From positions 676,281-740,280 of the forward strand of contig BCKE01000011.1 of NCBI GenBank assembly GCA_001600495.1: 64,000 bases of DNA, given 5' to 3'. Below, in pieces: positions 8,255 through 63,959 of the stretch. The stretch's first letter is position 1. The number at the start of each line of letters is the position of its first letter. The notes beneath the pieces are model-generated. The model made no database searches and was not told the DNA's origin. It saw only the letters and a list, made by a program, of their open reading frames with translations. This DNA comes from Pilasporangium apinafurcum. Its lineage: Eukaryota > Oomycota > Peronosporomycetes > Pythiales > Pythiaceae. A program made the translations under genes and the position numbers.

Positions 8255-10702
8255 ATGGATGAAGAAGTCCACCAGCAACAAGAAATCCCGGCGACTGCGG
8301 GTGACTTGTTAGAATCAGAATCACTCACTCTTTCAGATTCGGATAGTGCAGCGATTGAACTGCCGCCACGAGTGCAGGGTGAAGCAGCTCTAGATGATAG
8401 CCACGATCATGACGAGGTACCAGAGAGTCTAATCATCAATGCGACTCAACTATTACCTCACTTGAGCTTGGATGGGGATGACATCGTGATGGAGTTTGTG
8501 GATGATCTAGCGGATGCAGCGGTGCAGTACTCCATCGAACAGTTCTATGAGCGGAGGCTGAGTGGATATGTCGCCACGTGGGCTACCTCGTTAGTCTTTG
8601 AGTGTGTTTTGCCGGTTTGTATGACCCCAACTGGAATTTTATCGCGTCAGGAGAAAGGAGAATTGGTTATTGATCCGATGACAGAGGTGATCCACCCTCT
8701 TTCCTCGTTAGCCAGCCCCCAGGCATGCTCTATGGATAATTTTTGCCGCTACGAGATCCCCATCAAGCCACAGCAGCAACGATTGAGCGAATCACCTCAT
8801 CAACCGATGGGTTTTGATACAAATGCGTATCGTGGCTCCAAAAGTCGGAAAGAATACTCACCATCTCGTCCATCATCGGTTCAATCCTCACACCGAGTGA
8901 AAAAGAAACCACAGGGATGGGTACACTGGTCGCTATTGCGTAGTGAACCAACTGCATTCGACACAGTATTGGCAACAAATCATACACCCGGTGTAGTGTT
9001 CAGCACAGAACCCAGCTTGCCGCCTCGAGCTTCACCTCGCAAAGCAGTCGCGGCTCTGAAGACTGCAATATCAGCGATGACAGCGCAGCAGCAAGATACA
9101 AGCGTGAATATACTTAAACACGATGGCGATAAACCCATCGATTCTATTGCGTCTTTGGATGAATGCGCTTCCAACCAGTCCAGCGTGTCGACGCGACAGA
9201 AACTTGCATCACATCGAGTGATTCGGCATGCAGCTGATAATATAAATACGTTTCTAGCTCGCGATGGTCATCTGGCACATGATAAGTCCGGCAGGATATT
9301 TGCCAATGATTCGCATCAATCAGTGGAGGTGGAATTTCAGATCAAGCGGTATGATCACACTGATCGTCGACGCAGTAGTGTAAAACACGATGTCCTCCCT
9401 GACTTGGGTTTACAAAGCAGATTGAGCCATCTCAACAACAACGGTGCGGCCATTCATGAAGAATACAAAGAAGATATTGGCCAAAGAGACAACAACATGA
9501 ATGGGCACCGTCACGGTATCGATCATGCTATAGCGCAGTCGTTTAATGCGATGGCACTTTCTCCAGGTGTGAAGCTCCAAACATCTGGAGAGGCGATGAA
9601 AAGCGGACCAGNCCTGCCGCTCTTCTCCACAAGAATGCGTAAAGCTACATTCAATGTGCGTTTTTTGTTTGCTTGCACTGAGTCTATCTGGATTTGGTTG
9701 TATTCCTCTGAAAGTTTCTCAATATGGTTTTACCGCCTTGTTATAGCAAGAAGAACTTGCGACAGCTCATTCTTCTCCGTCCATGGCATTTACCCCTTTG
9801 CATTCGACTTGTCATACAATAACAGACGGTAAGCATTTTGCACTTCATGTAAATCTATGAGAATACTATCTTCTGATTAGAATCTGCCTCGCTTCACCAA
9901 TTAATCAGACTCGTGTTTACGAGCAACTACAACGGTGAGAACTACAGTTGTCAACACATACTTAGGCATTTTTCTGATAGTGCTTATCTGTTTTTCGTGC
10001 TCTCTGTCTCCTAGATGCAAACCAAGCAGCAGCTCAAAGTTCAGCGCCCGTGTACTACCTCAACAGTGAGTTTTACCCCGGCGCACCAAGCCTGCTGTGC
10101 AGATGGAGCGGTGGAATCCGTGGGGACGGCAGTTGGTAACGCCGGCAACTTCTCTGAACTTATCAAGCAGCGCGCATTTTTGAGGAAACAGGCTACACTC
10201 CACTCACCACCAAAGAAAATGACTCCACGTAGCCGCCGAGCGACTACTGCACCACCTTCATCACGTATGTTGATGCGAATGTGAACGTACTTGATATTGG
10301 TCACTTGTGGAACCTGACGTTGCTTGTCTCTATTTGCTATTGACTATTGTTATCTTTAGCTTTGATGCGGCGAATCCTGCAGCCAAAAGAGTCCAATCCG
10401 CTCACAAATGCAACCAAAATCATATAGGACAAGTATTATCGACGACATTGATCACGTTGCTCGATGTGGGCGACTGGATCATGCATTGCTGTTCAAGAAA
10501 CGGAAACATCAATGAAAACTACGCGCTTGCAAATATTGCGGGAGTTTTGAGATTTTGGATAAAGATTTGCATTGGTAAACCTATACGACATCAATGTACA
10601 TTAGAAGATGGTCACTCTTTCCTCTAGCAACTAGCCAATGATGGACGAATCAACGACAATTTTGAACTATCCAAGTGGAAATTTGCTATAAGAAGTCTCT
10701 GA
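8255..10702 (+). CDS. unrecognised multi-exon protein; 3' exons uncertain
   Basis: The first exon (8255-9655) is long and well supported: an acidic N-terminus, then a stretch with YSIEQFYERRLSGYVATW and a polar middle. Base 9612 is an N, so one codon (GNC) is unknown. Likely next exons are 9747-9828, 9881-9934 and 10015 onward, after the strong pyrimidine-rich acceptor CTCCTAG. A frame change inside 10015-10130 needs either a 37-nt intron (10066-10102) or a later acceptor at 10066. A GTATGT donor at 10265 ends the next exon. Beyond it, open protein-like stretches run to a stop at 10702 (…KWKFAIRSL), nine bases before the convergent nuclease gene, but I could not fix these last junctions with certainty. 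No family recognised. It follows the IQ/WW gene by 92 bp on the same strand. Confidence 0.6.
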
Positions 10703-22678: not shown

Positions 22679-24960
22679 ATGCACCTGATGTTCCGCCGCC
22701 GACTATCTTCGTTGGGCACGAGCGCCTCATGGGTGCGCCCAGGATCGCATGACTACTTGAAAGACGTCATTGAGAGCCGTGTGTATGATGTGGCAGTGCA
22801 AACTCCGCTAGTGCATGCAGCGCAATTGTCAAAAGCCTTGCCTGGCAATTGCAGCATCTACTTGAAACGAGAGGTGTGCGCTAAGTAGCTATGGTTGCAA
22901 AGATCCGAATGTATATTTTTTACATAAATTCGGATGCTACTGGTTGTGTATAGGACATGCAACCAACGTTTTCGTTCAATATTCGAGGAGCACACAACAA
23001 GATCGCAAATTTGACAGCATCGCAGCGGCAAAATGGTATTGTTGCTTGTGCCGCAGGCAATCACTTACAGGTGTGCTGGACCGAGTATTATGGATGCATT
23101 GTGTGAATCCCCTTTTACTGAGTATATGATGGGCTGTTGCTTTAGGGAGTGGCGTACTCAGCAGACAAGTTGGGGGTGAATGCGATTATTATCACTCCAC
23201 ATGGCACAACTCATCCTGTAAGCAACTACCGAAAGCACCAGATTTTCAAGCGGATCATTGATAAACTTATGTCGTACGTGTGCATATTGCTCAGTTCTCA
23301 CACGCTGCATCAGAATATGTTCAAGTAAAGGAGCATGGCTCCGATTTTGACGAAGCACTGGTGAGTGCTAATCAATTGTCGAATGATTCATCCTGATGTT
23401 AACGTCACCATTTAAATTGTCGAGTGTAGAAAGAAGCATTTCGCATTGCTCAGACCGAAGGGCGTTCACTAGTTCATCCTTTTGATGACCCGTTAGTCAT
23501 CGCTGGGAATGGAACGGTAGGGTTGGAGATTTTGAAAGAGGTATGTGGCGTGACTGTTGGCATTGCGCATTATCATGTTAAATATCGTATGCAGATGGTG
23601 ATTGTTTCTAAATACAATATGTAGACAGCGGGTCAATGGCCTGATGCCATTTTTGCACCTGTCGGCGGAGGTGGTTTGATTTCCGGTATTGCCGCTTTCG
23701 TAAAAGAAGTGGCGCCATCAGTAAAGGTTATTGGTGTTGAAGCGCATGGCTCGAATTTGTTACAAGCATCTTTGCAGAAAGGCGAACGCGTGACATTCCC
23801 AACGATCAATCGCTTCACCGAAGAAGTTGGGATTCGATCACTTGGAGTGGAGAACTACCGACTTTGCAAAGACCTTGTCGATGATGTCGTTACAGTCTCA
23901 ACGGATGAGATTTGTTCCGCCATCAAGGATATCTTTGGCGATACACGGTCACTTATGGAACCCACGGGTGCTGTAAGTGTCGCCGGTGCTAAAAAATACG
24001 CCCACCTTCGAAATGCGCAAGATGAAAAATACATCGCGATTTTAGCGGCTGCAAACATGGACTTTGATCGATTGCGATTCGTCTCAGAACGGTATGAGAC
24101 GAACCATTCAGCCACGCACACGAAACTCGGTGCTAACCTTTTGCATGATGTTTAGATCGGATGACCGAGAGAGGTTTATGGCTGTTACGATCCCAGAACG
24201 CCAAGGCAGTTTTCAGCGACTATACAATCTGATCTGTGAGTTTGCTATCATTATGGCGTATACCAGCGTTGAATTCGTTTCACTTGCAACTGTCGACTCA
24301 TATTCGTTCCTTCTGCTGCAGATCCACGTAATGTGACAGAATTCACATACCGAATGAACTCTCAAACAGACAAAATTGCTCGCATCTGCATGAGCATCCA
24401 AACTAAAGCCGAGCAGGAATTTGACGAGATCATTGATGCGATCAACTCAGCTGAGGGTATGCACGCCACGGATTTGGTGAACAACGAACTCGCCAAGTCT
24501 CATTTACGCCATTTGGCAGGCGGACGAGCTGAAAATGTACGTGCATTGCACGAGCAGCCTATTCTAAACCAACGGGAGCTAACTATTCACTTTTCTGTGA
24601 CAATACTTTTGTCATCGCAGGTGCCAAATGAGCGATTGTTCCGATTAGAGTTTCCAGAACGTCCAGGCGCATTAAAAGATTTTCTCGACACTCTAGGGTA
24701 AGTCAGTGTTTCGTCTAATAATTGCATATTGAACAACTTGAACGGATTTAACAAATGACTTTGCCATTAGGGAATCGAATGTGCGCTGGAACGTGAGTTT
24801 GTTCCATTATCGCAATCACGGAGCCGATATTGGGCGCGTCTTGGTAGCCTTCCAAGTTCCTCCAAAGGATAATGCGACTTTCAGTGATTTCCTGGATAAA
24901 GTAGGCTTCCGTTTCGTCGAAGAGACTGACAATGTTGCATATACGCACTTCCTCATGTAA
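22679..24960 (+). CDS. ilvA: threonine deaminase (biosynthetic) lacking the PLP lysine
   Basis: Ten exons: 22679-22873, 22954-23070, 23146-23217, 23295-23360, 23430-23540, 23625-24091, 24156-24235, 24322-24536, 24621-24697 and 24771-24960, giving 529 residues with consistent phases. The fold is clear: LKRE, SF-IRGA, AGNH, GVAYSADKLGV, DDPLVIAGNGTVGLEIL, PVGGGG (201-204), and two C-terminal ACT-type regulatory domains (VTIPERQGSFQRL, LEFPERPGALKDFL), as in isoleucine-pathway threonine deaminases. The start has mitochondrial presequence character (MHLMFRRRLSSLG). In the family the lysine of SFKxRGA forms the Schiff base with PLP; here the codon is AAT, giving SFNIRGA (Asn74). The following SAGNHAQ reads AAGNHLQ. 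No frameshift or stop breaks the gene. It may be a catalytically dead or regulatory relative, or carry a base-call error. Confidence 0.88.
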
Positions 24961-26287: not shown

Positions 26288-26725
26288 ATGAATTTCGTTA
26301 CCTTCGTTGTCGCTATCACTACTGGTGTGGCATCCACCAATGCTGCAGTCACTGATGACGTTGCTGCTCTATCCAATCCATCATCCGTCATCTCATCACA
26401 GGAAGCGCTATAAGCGGTCAAGGGACTTGAACTTCCCAAGAGAGTCACGCTCACTAATACTGCTGAGTATATCCCAGAAGCACCACCACAACAACAAATC
26501 GACAAGAAAGAAGTGGATCTTCGCAGTGCGCAATCTGATGACAAGAAGGAATGGTGAGGAGGTTGGGGAGACTGGGGTGGATTTGGACCATACCGCTTCG
26601 GATATACTTGCGGTGACTGGGAAGGATGGGGTTACCCACTCGGTTACTGGAAGGCTTATGGTGCTGGGTTGTACGGAGGTGGCTGAGGACTTGGCATTCC
26701 CTTTGACGATCTCTTCTATTGCTAA
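26288..26725 (+). pseudogene. decayed Gly/Trp/Tyr-rich small secreted protein
   Basis: From the ATG at 26288 one frame encodes a signal peptide (MNFVTFVVAITTGVASTNA) and a short polar stretch, then a TAA at 26411-26413. The same frame stays protein-like (LPKRVTLTNTAEYIPEAPPQ), meets TGA at 26555-26557, continues as a Gly/Trp/Tyr/Phe-rich segment (GGWGDWGGFGPYRFGYTCGD, then EGWGYPLGYWKAYGAGLYGG), meets TGA at 26684-26686 and ends at TAA 26723-26725. Three in-frame stops with no frameshift point to a recently inactivated gene. Both TGA codons stand where TGG (Trp) would suit the repeat. Gly/aromatic-rich small secreted proteins are widespread in oomycetes, so the original product was probably extracellular. 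The break is described here, not repaired. Confidence 0.6.
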
Positions 26726-46237: not shown

Positions 46238-47830
46238 TCACAAAGCAGCGACATTCACAGGTTGAATCCGTACCATCAAGGGGTCCTTCATCGGTAACGT
46301 TAATGACCTCCCGTAAGTAACATGCTGTCCTGGCTCAACAGCAATGTGAAAGCTGCTCAACACCGCTATAATCACGAATTTCATCTCCAACATCGCCAAG
46401 TGCATTCCCACACACATGCGTGGTCCACCAAAGAACGAATTGAATTTAAATGGCGACACCTGCAGTAGCTTCCCCGTATGAGGATCTATCCATCGTTCTG
46501 GCTCAAAGTCAGCAGCATTCGGACCCCAAATGCTTGTCATCCTTCCCATAGCGTAAGGAGACATGATGATAGTCGTGCCTTCGAGTACGAACGTGCCATC
46601 CGAGAGCACTGTATCCTTGTTCGTGTATCTGGAACTCACTGCGCCAGGTGGATAGAGGCGAAGCGTTTCTTTGATAGCTGCTTCGAGGTACGTGGTCTCT
46701 TGGAGCTCAATCATCGTCGGTAAATGGATTGGCAAGTTTTTTCCCTCTCCAGCAGATAACAATGGTAGTTTTTCGTGTAATTCTGCACGGATCTTGGCTT
46801 CGACATGTGGATGTCGGCTCAAAAGGTAAAAGAACCAACATAGGCTCTGTGCAGTCGTGTCACGTCCAGCAAAGAGCGATGATAAAACTATACTGCGTAA
46901 CACTAGTGGCTCCAATTGCTGCTTCTCACCCGTTGCATCAGCTGCATCAATCGCCAACGACACCAAGTCCTTCATCTTTTGATTATTTGTATTCGCAGTG
47001 TTATTACCTCGACGACGTTCCAAGGCCTTAGAGATTATATTCAACACCAAGTCATTCACGGTCTTCATGCTGCGCTTCAGTTGGGCTTCGTCGCCGATGT
47101 TGAGCAGCCGCTGCAGTTTCCAGTAGGCAGAGGGCAAGATGAATCGCTTGGTAATGATCCGTGAGGCTTCATCGAAGGCAGCTTCAAACTCATGACTCTC
47201 ACCTGCTTCGAGTCCCCTCAAATGCACGCCGAAAGCAATATCGGAAAAAACTTCAAGTGTAAAGCGATTCATGATGGTGCAGAGGTCAAAACGTTCTTGC
47301 ACCTCACATTTCTTCTGGAAAACGTTTAGCAACACATCAATATGCTTGTGGATGATCGACGTGATCACTTTACGGAGATTCTTGGCGCTCAGCAAGTTCG
47401 CAACGATCTTTCGCTGGAACCGCCATTTCTCGCCATCAACAATGCCCATTGAGTCACCAAGTAGATCATGCAGATTCTCGTAGGTGAAGGGCCCTTTGAC
47501 GAATGTATCGAACTGTGTTTTCAGCACGTCTTCCAATAATTTTGGCGAGGAAATGATGATGCTGTCCATGGCACCGATTGGGGCACGCAACACCCACACG
47601 TCGAAACATGTGCACATTTCCAAAAACCAGTCGTGGATGGTCTCATTGTTGTTGATCATGTCGAATAAATTACCGATGAGCGGTAACGTCGTCGGTGGCT
47701 GAGGAAGAGGTGGTGATAATAACTTCTTCGACGATGGACGAATAACAACAACATAAAGTAAATAAAACAGAGCTCCAGATACGATGGCTGATGGAGTGAA
47801 GACTGCGTTTTGCAGAAACGATAAGACCAT
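46238..47830 (-). CDS. cytochrome P450 (CYP86-clan-like), copy 1
   Basis: A single exon of 530 residues from the ATG at 47830. An upstream in-frame start at 47863 is possible, but the chosen one matches the N-terminus of the neighbouring paralogue (MVL-SFL). It has an N-terminal membrane anchor (IVSGALFYLLYVVVI), a Pro-rich hinge (PPLPQPPTTLPLIGNLFD), an I-helix oxygen-binding motif (LFAGRDTTAQSLCWF), K-helix ETLRLYPPG, and heme loop FFGGPRMCVGMHLAML with the Cys ligand ~58 residues from the C-terminus. AGRDTTA and the whole plan fit the plant/oomycete CYP86/CYP94-like clan of fatty-acid hydroxylases, including oomycete CYP5014/5015-type enzymes. Substrate not known. It is arranged head to head with its paralogue. 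Confidence 0.92.
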   Translation of the reverse strand: MVLSFLQNAVFTPSAIVSGALFYLLYVVVIRPSSKKLLSPPLPQPPTTLPLIGNLFDMINNNETIHDWFLEMCTCFDVWVLRAPIGAMDSIIISSPKLLEDVLKTQFDTFVKGPFTYENLHDLLGDSMGIVDGEKWRFQRKIVANLLSAKNLRKVITSIIHKHIDVLLNVFQKKCEVQERFDLCTIMNRFTLEVFSDIAFGVHLRGLEAGESHEFEAAFDEASRIITKRFILPSAYWKLQRLLNIGDEAQLKRSMKTVNDLVLNIISKALERRRGNNTANTNNQKMKDLVSLAIDAADATGEKQQLEPLVLRSIVLSSLFAGRDTTAQSLCWFFYLLSRHPHVEAKIRAELHEKLPLLSAGEGKNLPIHLPTMIELQETTYLEAAIKETLRLYPPGAVSSRYTNKDTVLSDGTFVLEGTTIIMSPYAMGRMTSIWGPNAADFEPERWIDPHTGKLLQVSPFKFNSFFGGPRMCVGMHLAMLEMKFVIIAVLSSFHIAVEPGQHVTYGRSLTLPMKDPLMVRIQPVNVAAL

Positions 47831-48701
47831 TCTGATATTAATATTGAAATTTGTTGTGGTCAAGGATTAGACAAAGGCAAATGCAAAAATAAGCCCATTT
47901 GAAATGTCCAATGCAGCCAAACAACGAAGGTTAATCCATGGAATTGAAAAGTGTACCCACCGCCTAATAAATTTAAACTCAACCATCACCTGGCGATGCT
48001 TCTGTGGTGGTGCAGCTGTCAAAGACGAAGAAAAGGTGGATGCATTAGTGAATCTGCGGGTTCAAAAGCATCTAACTACTTCCCTAATGTCCAATATATG
48101 GTAAATATTCCAAAAAGATCATATGAGCTACCATTTGGTAACTCAGAGATGATCTTTGTTTACTTTGAGTTTCTTCCAAGCCACTATAACGTCTTTTCCA
48201 AGTCATTATAGCACGTGAATTTGCAGAGACTCGAAGCAAACAAAACGATTTTCTTATTGCTATTTCGTCTTACTTTGGTATGTAAGCGTAACGTCGAATC
48301 TAGAGCATTGCATTGCATTGCATATGATGTCCAAATACATCTCATATGAATGGAAGTGAGGATGATAGTCAACAAAATAACAAAAAAGTGAAATCATGCC
48401 ATATAGAAATCTTATATTGCTTAAATAACGAGCTTGTGGGCGGCATGCTCTAACGGTATATTTTACAGGGTTCACGGTACCGGTATCTGCTTTTTTACCG
48501 GCCCATGCATCACTCCATGGCATTCGTACAGTACCGACGAAATGCAGTGATGAGTGTGATGCGGGAAGAAGAAGCATAAAATGGCGGTCCACATCGTTGG
48601 AGTAGCTCCATCTCCCTCCTGACTCTTGTATCCATCTGATAAGACCGACAACCTCCTGTTTCTATTTTTCCCTCACTTGAAGAAGTGGATAATAAGAAGA
48701 A
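47831..48701. promoter_or_regulatory. shared upstream region of divergent P450 genes
   Basis: About 870 bp without a gene, between the two divergent P450 starts. Contains a GCATT tandem repeat near 48305-48320 and AT-rich stretches, but no clear TATA or CCAAT cluster. Divergent duplicates this close may share regulation. Confidence 0.4.
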
Positions 48702-50282
48702 ATGGTGCTGCTGTCCTTCCTCTCGCATGCCCAGCTATTTGTTGTCGGAGTTGCTGGAGCTCTAGTGGTGTCCTATGTTTGCTACACTCTCATCACATGG
48801 AAAACAACGTCAAAGCATCTATACCGTCCCAAGCAGCAACTCCCTCAGCCACCAACCACGCTACCGATCGTCGGCAACCTCTTCGACTTGCTTCAGAAGA
48901 GCAGTGTCTTCCACGATTGGCTGTTTGAGTTGTGTATGCGCTTTGATGGGAAACCGTTCGCGCTCACATCGCCCGGTCGAAACCCGCTCATCGTGATCTC
49001 CTCCCCTGAGGGACTAGAAGAAATCGTCACCACTCATGTCGACACGTTTGTGAAAGGCCCGCATATGTATGAACGCTTCCATGATTTTTTAGGGGACGCT
49101 CTCACCATCGTCGATGGCGACGCGTGGAAATTCCAGCGGAAAACTCTCGTCACTCTATTTAGTGCACGAGCATTAAGAGAATTGATGGCGGAGATCATTC
49201 AGAAAAACACCCGCATTCTCGTCGATTTCTTCCAGCAGCAGCAGATGAAGGGCAAAAGTCAACAACCGTTTGATCTCTCAGCTAAGATGCACCGGTTTAC
49301 AATGACAGTGTTTACGGAAATTGGCTTTGGCCTGCAGCTTGGTAGTTTGGAATCCACTGATACCCATGAATTTGAACGTGCGTTCGATGCGGCACAGCGG
49401 ATCATTGTTGGTCGATTTGCTCAGCCTGCGATCATCTGGAAACTCAAGCGGTGGCTCAATGTCGGGAAAGAAGCGGAGCTCAAGCGCAGCATCAAAGTCA
49501 TTGATAATGTGGTACTGGATGTGATTTCTAAAGCGTTGGCCAAACGTGCCAACCACGAGACAAAAACTCAGAGAAGTGGGAACGATATCGTGTCCTTGGC
49601 GATCGAGAGTGCTGAGGCTAACGAGCACTTGAACCCGCAGGTGCTGCGTAGTCTCGTGGTCGCTGCATTGGTCGCTGGACGAGACACGACCGCACAGACG
49701 TTCTGTTGGTTCATATACCTTTTGAATCTCCATCCTGAGGTTGAAACTAAGGTCCGAAAGGAATTAAGAGTGAAGCTTCCGGCAGCCCATAACGCTGCTA
49801 AATCTCTACACTTGTCTATGAACGTTTTGCAAGAGCTCATTTACACTGAGGCAGCTTTAAAAGAAACCCTCCGCTTGTATCCTGCAGGTGCACTGAACGG
49901 CAAGTACTGCAATCAAGACACTGTACTTCGTGATGGTACGTTCATTCCCAAAGGAACGAGTGTCATGCTTCCACACTACGCAATGGGAAGAATGTCGAGT
50001 ATCTGGGGCCCAGACTCATTGGAATTCAAGCCCGAACGATGGATTGACGATACCACAGGCAAACTTCGGCAATTTTCTCCCTATAAATTCAGTGCATTCT
50101 TTGCCGGGCCGCGCATCTGCGTGGGTAGGCACTTGGCAATGCTAGAGCTGAAAATGTTGGTGGTGAACTTGCTTACGCGCTTTCACATCGCTGTTGAGGC
50201 TGGACAAGACGTGACATATGATCGCTCAATCTCGTTACCGATGAAACATCCCTTCATGGTGAAGATAGAAGCGATAGCGTAG
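48702..50282 (+). CDS. cytochrome P450 (CYP86-clan-like), copy 2
   Basis: A single exon of 526 residues. An anchor helix (LFVVGVAGALVVSYVCYTLI) is followed by the hinge QQLPQPPTTLPIVGNLFDLL, I-helix ALVAGRDTTAQTFCWFIYLL, K-helix AALKETLRLYPAG, RW at the meander (FKPERWID) and heme loop FFAGPRICVGRHLAMLELK. It aligns end to end with the neighbouring minus-strand P450 (for example NLFD, ETLRLYP, YAMGRMSSIWGP in both), so the pair arose by inverted duplication. Expected ER-bound monooxygenase, likely a fatty-acid hydroxylase by clan; substrate unknown. Confidence 0.93.
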   Translation: MVLLSFLSHAQLFVVGVAGALVVSYVCYTLITWKTTSKHLYRPKQQLPQPPTTLPIVGNLFDLLQKSSVFHDWLFELCMRFDGKPFALTSPGRNPLIVISSPEGLEEIVTTHVDTFVKGPHMYERFHDFLGDALTIVDGDAWKFQRKTLVTLFSARALRELMAEIIQKNTRILVDFFQQQQMKGKSQQPFDLSAKMHRFTMTVFTEIGFGLQLGSLESTDTHEFERAFDAAQRIIVGRFAQPAIIWKLKRWLNVGKEAELKRSIKVIDNVVLDVISKALAKRANHETKTQRSGNDIVSLAIESAEANEHLNPQVLRSLVVAALVAGRDTTAQTFCWFIYLLNLHPEVETKVRKELRVKLPAAHNAAKSLHLSMNVLQELIYTEAALKETLRLYPAGALNGKYCNQDTVLRDGTFIPKGTSVMLPHYAMGRMSSIWGPDSLEFKPERWIDDTTGKLRQFSPYKFSAFFAGPRICVGRHLAMLELKMLVVNLLTRFHIAVEAGQDVTYDRSISLPMKHPFMVKIEAIA

Positions 50283-59922: not shown

Positions 59923-60540
59923 TTACTGTGCTGATGGTGTGCCGTCCTTGACAATTTCACCTTTTTCGTTAATCTTCTCTGGTGCCTGAGGGTTGATATT
60001 GACGCAGCCGATGACCACGCAATCGGGCTCAATCTTGACAGTCTTAGCTGTGATATTGCCAAAAATCTGTCCTTTATCCCTCAACACGAGCTTATCGACG
60101 ATGATGTTGCCAATGATTTTGCCACCAGTCACGTAGACCTCCTTCATGTTCTCTACAGGTCCAATCAACACACCTTTCGACCCAATAACAAGCGACCCTT
60201 TCGAGATGAGTTTGCCTTCGAACTCGCCTTCAATACGCAGCAGCCGCTCAAAGCTCAGCTCGCCTTTCATCTTCACCGCGGCACCGATGGTAGTCTCAGC
60301 TTCGGCATCAACAATGGGAACTTTGGACACACGTGGGCAACCGTTGCTGCCGTGATAATTTGGCGTCATTGGGGGCGAATCACTTTGGAATTTCGAGTGA
60401 TTGCGACCACGTCGAGGTGGAGATGTTGTCCCGTATTCGTGGTCAGACACGCCTTCATCTGGATCCATCATTGATGCTGAAGGTGCGTACGTTCGTTTGG
60501 GTTTTGGTGGTGGATTACGCGGAACAGCCACGTCGTCCAT
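59923..60540 (-). CDS. bactofilin-family polymer-forming protein
   Basis: A single exon of 205 residues from the ATG at 60540; the frame is open 14 codons further upstream to a GTG. The N-terminal ~80 residues are Pro/Ser/Asp-rich. Residues ~83-187 are a right-handed beta-helix of the bactofilin/DUF583 type: TTIGAAVKMKGELSFERLLR, IEGEFEGKLISKGSLVIGSK, then GNIIVDKLVLRDKGQIFGNI and AKTVKIEPDCVVIGCVNIN, with the repeated hydrophobic/Gly periodicity of about 17-18 residues and the starting T-x-IG. Bactofilins self-assemble into nucleotide-free filaments and are mainly bacterial. The tail carries the C-terminal APEKINEKGEIVKDG. It converges on BUD23 (~105 bp) and does not look like contamination given the neighbours. 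Confidence 0.82.
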   Translation of the reverse strand: MDDVAVPRNPPPKPKRTYAPSASMMDPDEGVSDHEYGTTSPPRRGRNHSKFQSDSPPMTPNYHGSNGCPRVSKVPIVDAEAETTIGAAVKMKGELSFERLLRIEGEFEGKLISKGSLVIGSKGVLIGPVENMKEVYVTGGKIIGNIIVDKLVLRDKGQIFGNITAKTVKIEPDCVVIGCVNINPQAPEKINEKGEIVKDGTPSAQ

Positions 60541-60923
60541 TTCTTGGATTCGGCCCGTAGCGGTAGTGTTTTCTCGTAGCACACGTGGGAGTGGAATTTT
60601 CGCCTGCTATTGATCTTAAGGGTGGTTGCTTCCCAGGCGCGCAGGCTTGGAATTCTTCCCGTTCTCTGCTGTTTCTCACAGCTCGAAGAAGAGGATGATG
60701 AGGAACCAGACCGCTTAGAAGGCGAGTTATTTATGTGAGATTCAACCAAAAGAGAGCGGCTAGTAATGATAAGAATAGAGGCACACCAACAATACAAAAA
60801 TACATCATCTCGTTCGTTTTGCTTTTGTTTTTCGATCATGATCTTATTAGGTGGGTCAGATTGTTCGATAGATATTTTTTTTGAGAGTATTCCGGATAAC
60901 AGTAGGTTGTCATTATCCTCTAT

Positions 60924-61841: not shown

Positions 61842-63959
<2,118 letters not shown>

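Follow-up and report, generated by a model that had tools for sequence, protein, structure and literature searches.

The threonine deaminase gene and its neighbors

The window, the whole 64-kb stretch of Pilasporangium apinafurcum DNA that we analysed, carries a ten-exon threonine deaminase gene on the plus strand at 22679-24960, in a model built from our reading of the sequence. Its coding sequence (1590 nt) specifies 529 amino acids without an internal stop, and all nine introns begin with GT, end with AG and measure 64-86 nt; the claim of the original prediction that neither a stop nor a frameshift is present therefore holds across all 529 codons. Exon 1 (22679-22873) provides the start codon, an Arg/Ser-rich N-terminus that by eye is a possible mitochondrial presequence, and the beginning of the catalytic domain, while exon 2 (22954-23070), the segment to which attention was originally drawn, encodes the motifs SFNIRGA and AAGNHLQ. 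Exon 3 (23146-23217) closes with the letters TPHGTTHP and is followed by exon 4 (23295-23360), for which the splice choice is uncertain, and by exon 5 (23430-23540), which carries HPFDDPLVIAGNGT and a change of Gln177 to Asn at 23508-23510. Exon 6 (23625-24091) contains a preserved GGGGL loop (from 23664) as well as the changes G254E (23823-23825) and S328A with G329A (24045-24050). Alignment with the solved structures 1tdj and 8y1j places the start of the first regulatory (ACT-like) domain in exon 7 (24156-24235) and its continuation in exon 8 (24322-24536); the second regulatory domain occupies exon 9 (24621-24697), with its best Thr_dehydrat_C stretch at residues 438-528, and ends with the stop codon in exon 10 (24771-24960).

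Intron 3, with donor and acceptor at 23217/23295, is a GT-AG intron of 77 nt and is the only one of 13 in-frame pairs enumerated whose length lies in the range spanned by the eight remaining introns (64-86 nt). Read without splicing, the region 23218-23345 contains VSNYRKHQ, which has a faint likeness to KVQAVRAHG of 8y1j, a stretch with no counterpart in the spliced protein when the two are aligned; splice evolution or an impaired intron 3 may be relevant here. The original prediction had also named, as something that would refute it, an exon structure that replaces the Asn74 segment. Such hidden splicing was considered and rejected: the Asn codon starts 24 nt inside exon 2, which aligns gap-free with both 8y1j and 1tdj.

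Around the gene, ten flanking open reading frames compared with Pfam matched P450, DEAD helicase, symporter, kinase and similar cellular families, together with one bactofilin. The bactofilin domain (PF04519, 64 bits) lies in a minus-strand frame at 59923-60606 of this eukaryotic window; bactofilins are a polymer-forming cytoskeletal family known mainly from bacteria. Two cytochrome P450 genes (PF00067), each a single open frame, form a divergent pair at 46238-47866 (minus strand) and 48696-50282 (plus strand). Downstream of the threonine deaminase gene, a short plus-strand frame at 26288-26413 has, by eye, a start resembling a secretion signal (MNFVTFVVAITTGVASTNA...) and stops after 41 codons. 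The window contains two N bases, at 9612 and 63827, both far from the threonine deaminase gene; the latter falls within an alpha-tubulin-like frame (62559-63959, named by eye). A tblastn search with a 278-residue composite query returned the gene itself, in three stretches, and four matches at E values of 0.23 or worse, and no second threonine deaminase copy was found within the 64-kb window.

Family membership and the altered active site

The gene belongs to the biosynthetic threonine deaminase family and has both regulatory domains and a frame that is open across its ten exons. The protein matches TIGR01124 (ilvA_2Cterm, biosynthetic threonine ammonia-lyase with two C-terminal domains) at 591.5 bits against a cut-off of 411.3, over residues 25-528 of the protein and positions 1-499 of the model, and its Pfam matches are PALP and two stretches of Thr_dehydrat_C. 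Among solved structures, the best full-length matches are 8y1j (49% identity) and E. coli IlvA, 1tdj (44%), and the likeness to IlvA extends to full-length alignment, domain order, the GGGGL loop and the regulatory domains. All four glycines and the leucine of that phosphate loop are kept (G201-L205), as are Asn101 (E. coli N89) and His102 of the SAGNHAQ loop. Both C-terminal regulatory domains are present, and of the 50 regulatory columns with at least 97% conservation, 44 are unchanged. Preservation of both ACT domains and of the GGGG loop, as originally predicted, is evident in the intact G201-L205 and in the two Thr_dehydrat_C stretches, and 29 of the 32 columns that are strictly invariant in the regulatory part are unchanged.

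For comparison we fetched 80 bacterial relatives, 69 of which gave a usable frame. These were closer to one another than to the window protein, and more divergent controls were therefore added, bringing the mean identity to the set down to 0.21. Viral contigs searched with the window protein alone gave no relative, and searched with the alignment gave four (L081-L084). The final comparison comprised 112 rows (110 distinct), all of them bacterial sequences except for two PDB chains, of which one is from E. coli; 106 rows are threonine-deaminase-like and six are distant fold-type II relatives of unknown function.

Against this set the original prediction of an asparagine in place of the PLP-binding lysine is confirmed, on stronger grounds than those first given. 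Codon 74 is AAT (22978-22980), within SFNIRGA, and aligns with K62, the cofactor lysine of E. coli IlvA; the column holds lysine in all 112 rows, including the six distant relatives, down to 21% mean identity. The second loop was likewise read correctly as AAGNHLQ where SAGNHAQ is normal, with GCC (Ala) at codon 98 (23050-23052) and TTA (Leu) at codon 103 (23065-23067). Column 98 is Ser in 108 rows and Thr in four, and column 103 is Ala in 103, Gly in seven and Ser in two, with Leu in none. Measured against the TIGR01124 family, the SFKxRGA lysine is thus replaced by Asn74 and the SAGNHAQ loop is altered with its Asn and His retained: an essential catalytic residue has been lost from an otherwise complete family member, which is one of the marks of a pseudoenzyme.

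Five further changes, Q177N, G254E, A256G, S328A and G329A, had escaped the original prediction, so that its description of the gene as “otherwise intact” applies to the reading frame but not to the active site. Glutamine occupies column 177 in 106 of the 112 rows and glycine column 254 in 109, while column 328 is Ser, Cys, Thr, Gly or Asp throughout and never Ala; the remaining two substitutions have some precedent, Ala occurring at column 329 in two relatives and Gly at column 256 in three. There is also a degenerate stretch at approximately residues 124-141, following TPHGT, that includes the loss of K129 (lysine in 110 of 112 rows) and depends on how intron 3 is spliced; the differences at K74, S98 and G254 are independent of that choice. 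In E. coli numbering, the window protein differs from IlvA by K62N, S86A, A91L, Q166N, G241E, S315A and G316A in addition to this stretch.

The window protein differs at four (K74, S98, K129 and G254) of the 25 catalytic columns that are strictly invariant in the 106 threonine-deaminase-like rows. Over the deep-conserved catalytic columns it keeps 40 of 49 and breaks nine, a total that is not unusual, because three divergent paralogues that retain the lysine break 12, 11 and 9; one control (L113, at 0.50 identity) has 18 breaks among the 101 catalytic columns with at least 97% conservation. The number of broken columns is unremarkable, and what is special is which columns have changed.

Divergence of the catalytic and regulatory parts

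With 97% conservation as the lower limit, the window protein breaks 25 of 101 columns in the catalytic part and 6 of 50 in the regulatory part, and bacterial members left out one at a time break a mean of 1.19 catalytic columns and at most 7. The difference between 25/101 and 6/50 is not significant (Fisher P = 0.087), so we make no claim of a significant excess across the conserved catalytic columns as a whole. When only columns strictly invariant in the 88 rows with two regulatory domains are counted, 3 of 32 regulatory and 10 of 60 catalytic columns are changed.

At a regulatory identity of 0.44-0.50, bacterial pairs have a mean catalytic identity of 0.577 (sd 0.026; 135 pairs, which are not independent of one another), against 0.490 for the window protein (68 pairs), a mean under every one of the 135 bacterial pairs; at 0.50-0.56 the corresponding means are 0.604 (1046 pairs) and 0.467 (15 pairs). 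With residues 124-145 removed, the window mean is 0.513 against a bacterial mean of 0.581 and minimum of 0.510, and so is no longer below all bacterial pairs; with the nine active-site columns removed as well, the values are 0.529 and 0.570 (sd 0.027). Because the gap shrinks once these columns are taken out, the excess catalytic divergence is largely concentrated at the active site and in the stretch of uncertain splicing. For the window protein, catalytic minus regulatory identity comes to 0.008, against a mean of 0.050 per member and 0.017 for E. coli IlvA, and one of 88 members has a difference as low. Divergence centered on the active site is the pattern that would be expected if catalysis had been lost and the fold kept, an effect that is not unique in the set.

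A probable pseudoenzyme, its rivals and its meaning

Loss of the PLP lysine removes both the internal aldimine and the base that takes the alpha proton. Since the lysine needed for both is missing, we infer with high confidence that normal threonine dehydration by the Asn74 protein is very unlikely, and the gene product is probably a non-catalytic relative of threonine deaminase rather than the enzyme itself. In human serine racemase, according to the part of PMC6424897 covered here, Lys56 acts as a base and Ser313 faces the pyridine nitrogen; by likeness to that residue, position 328 (E. coli S315), now Ala, should face the pyridine nitrogen as well. A threonine deaminase that is still active despite its unusual active site would agree with the high family score, but this is a most improbable reading given a lysine in 112 of 112 rows, the six distant fold-type II relatives included, and given what the loss of that lysine does to the aldimine and the base. 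Hardly more credible is an error of sequencing or assembly, or a chimera of alleles or paralogues. Asn74 requires only one base change, and there are two N bases elsewhere in the window, yet six more conserved positions (98, 103, 177, 254, 328 and 329) are changed with the frame intact. A single base error was rejected as the whole explanation since altered conserved positions are scattered over exons 2, 5 and 6, and the original argument that one such error would not account for the second loop was sound.

The reading we prefer, at somewhat better than even confidence from the sequence comparisons, is that the gene encodes a pseudoenzyme of the biosynthetic threonine deaminase family, catalytically dead but retained. 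Its main rival, distinctly less probable, is a young pseudogene or dying gene: the enzyme would have become unneeded, through isoleucine supplied by a host or through a second active copy, and would not yet have collected a stop or a frameshift. Such decay is consistent with the missing active-site residues, the degenerate stretch at 124-141 and a perhaps impaired intron 3; against it stand nine canonical introns, 529 intact codons and the 40 of 49 deep-conserved catalytic columns still kept, among them GGGGL and the Asn loop residue. A neutral simulation bears on both sides. When the coding sequence of 400 genes was randomly substituted until hits at the 49 deep-conserved sites numbered 4, 6 or 9, with indels and splice sites not counted, the genes still free of stops amounted to 16%, 9% and 1%, respectively; four hits would thus leave decay some room, while nine would leave it very little, and frameshifts and splice-site loss would lower these fractions. 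The simulation favors retention, short of proof. Rather improbable is a protein that still binds PLP or substrate and has a lysine-independent job, as PLP carrier, amino-acid sensor or catalyst of altered chemistry. Retention of Asn101 (E. coli N89) and of the GGGG loop would suit it, but the Ala at position 328, seen in none of 112 rows, and the lack of any positive sign of new chemistry argue against it. The lysine and the normal SAGNHAQ loop are truly gone. Retention as a pseudoenzyme, originally raised beside a recent loss of isoleucine synthesis in a host-dependent lineage, is the better-supported reading; the regulatory role suggested along with it would be a further step.

If the gene is a retained pseudoenzyme, it seems reasonable, with moderate confidence, that the Asn74 protein has been kept for a role other than catalysis. 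Feedback inhibition of threonine deaminase is a textbook case, and the E. coli enzyme is a tetramer. In the likeliest such role, the Asn74 protein would join an active threonine deaminase encoded elsewhere, would add extra isoleucine/valine-sensing domains to the assembly and might in this way tune the feedback inhibition of the active enzyme. Pairing of a dead with a live subunit has precedent among PLP enzymes: the LCB1 subunit of serine palmitoyltransferase belongs to a PLP family, lacks that lysine and works with an active paralogue, although it differs from threonine deaminase in being of fold type I and in serving an unrelated reaction. The closest functional precedent that we found is the TSB-like protein of core eudicots, a tryptophan synthase beta paralogue that, in the part of PMC12727527 covered here, is no longer catalytic because two essential residues have changed, and activates TSA allosterically. 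Both it and the window protein would be fold-type II PLP enzyme relatives without catalysis, but TSB-like is of another family and its partner, TSA, is a different enzyme (PMC12727527, same part). By this analogy, the Asn74 protein is perhaps an isoleucine/valine-sensing partner. More speculative, and doubtful at present, is the wider proposal that in a eukaryotic lineage threonine deaminase has been divided between an active subunit and a dedicated dead one that senses isoleucine/valine; these would form hetero-oligomers, and the ratio of the two genes would set the feedback control of isoleucine synthesis.

The literature offers some context. In openly licensed papers, none of the matches listed had a title about an inactive threonine deaminase from an oomycete, and no feedback-resistant IlvA positions were found. 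The word “threonine” was not found in the portions covered of the main text of three oomycete papers (PMC6493774, PMC6638193 and PMC8308905), nor any active-site detail in the portion covered of PMC9081730. According to passages of PMC6493774, valine, leucine and isoleucine synthesis involves 14 enzymes, and early in tuber infection mRNA levels for the genes of all of them are higher in Ph. infestans than they are in Py. ultimum. E. coli K-12 strains from which ilvA and tdcB have been deleted adapt after 70-120 h (PMC7476758), and two diatoms have one threonine deaminase gene each, according to part of PMC3901274.

Annotation at the family level would label this gene a working enzyme, its score being above the cut-off, and metabolic models could as a result credit too much autonomy for isoleucine. 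A naturally inactive form that retains its sensor domains would, in turn, let the regulatory role of those domains be examined separately from catalysis.
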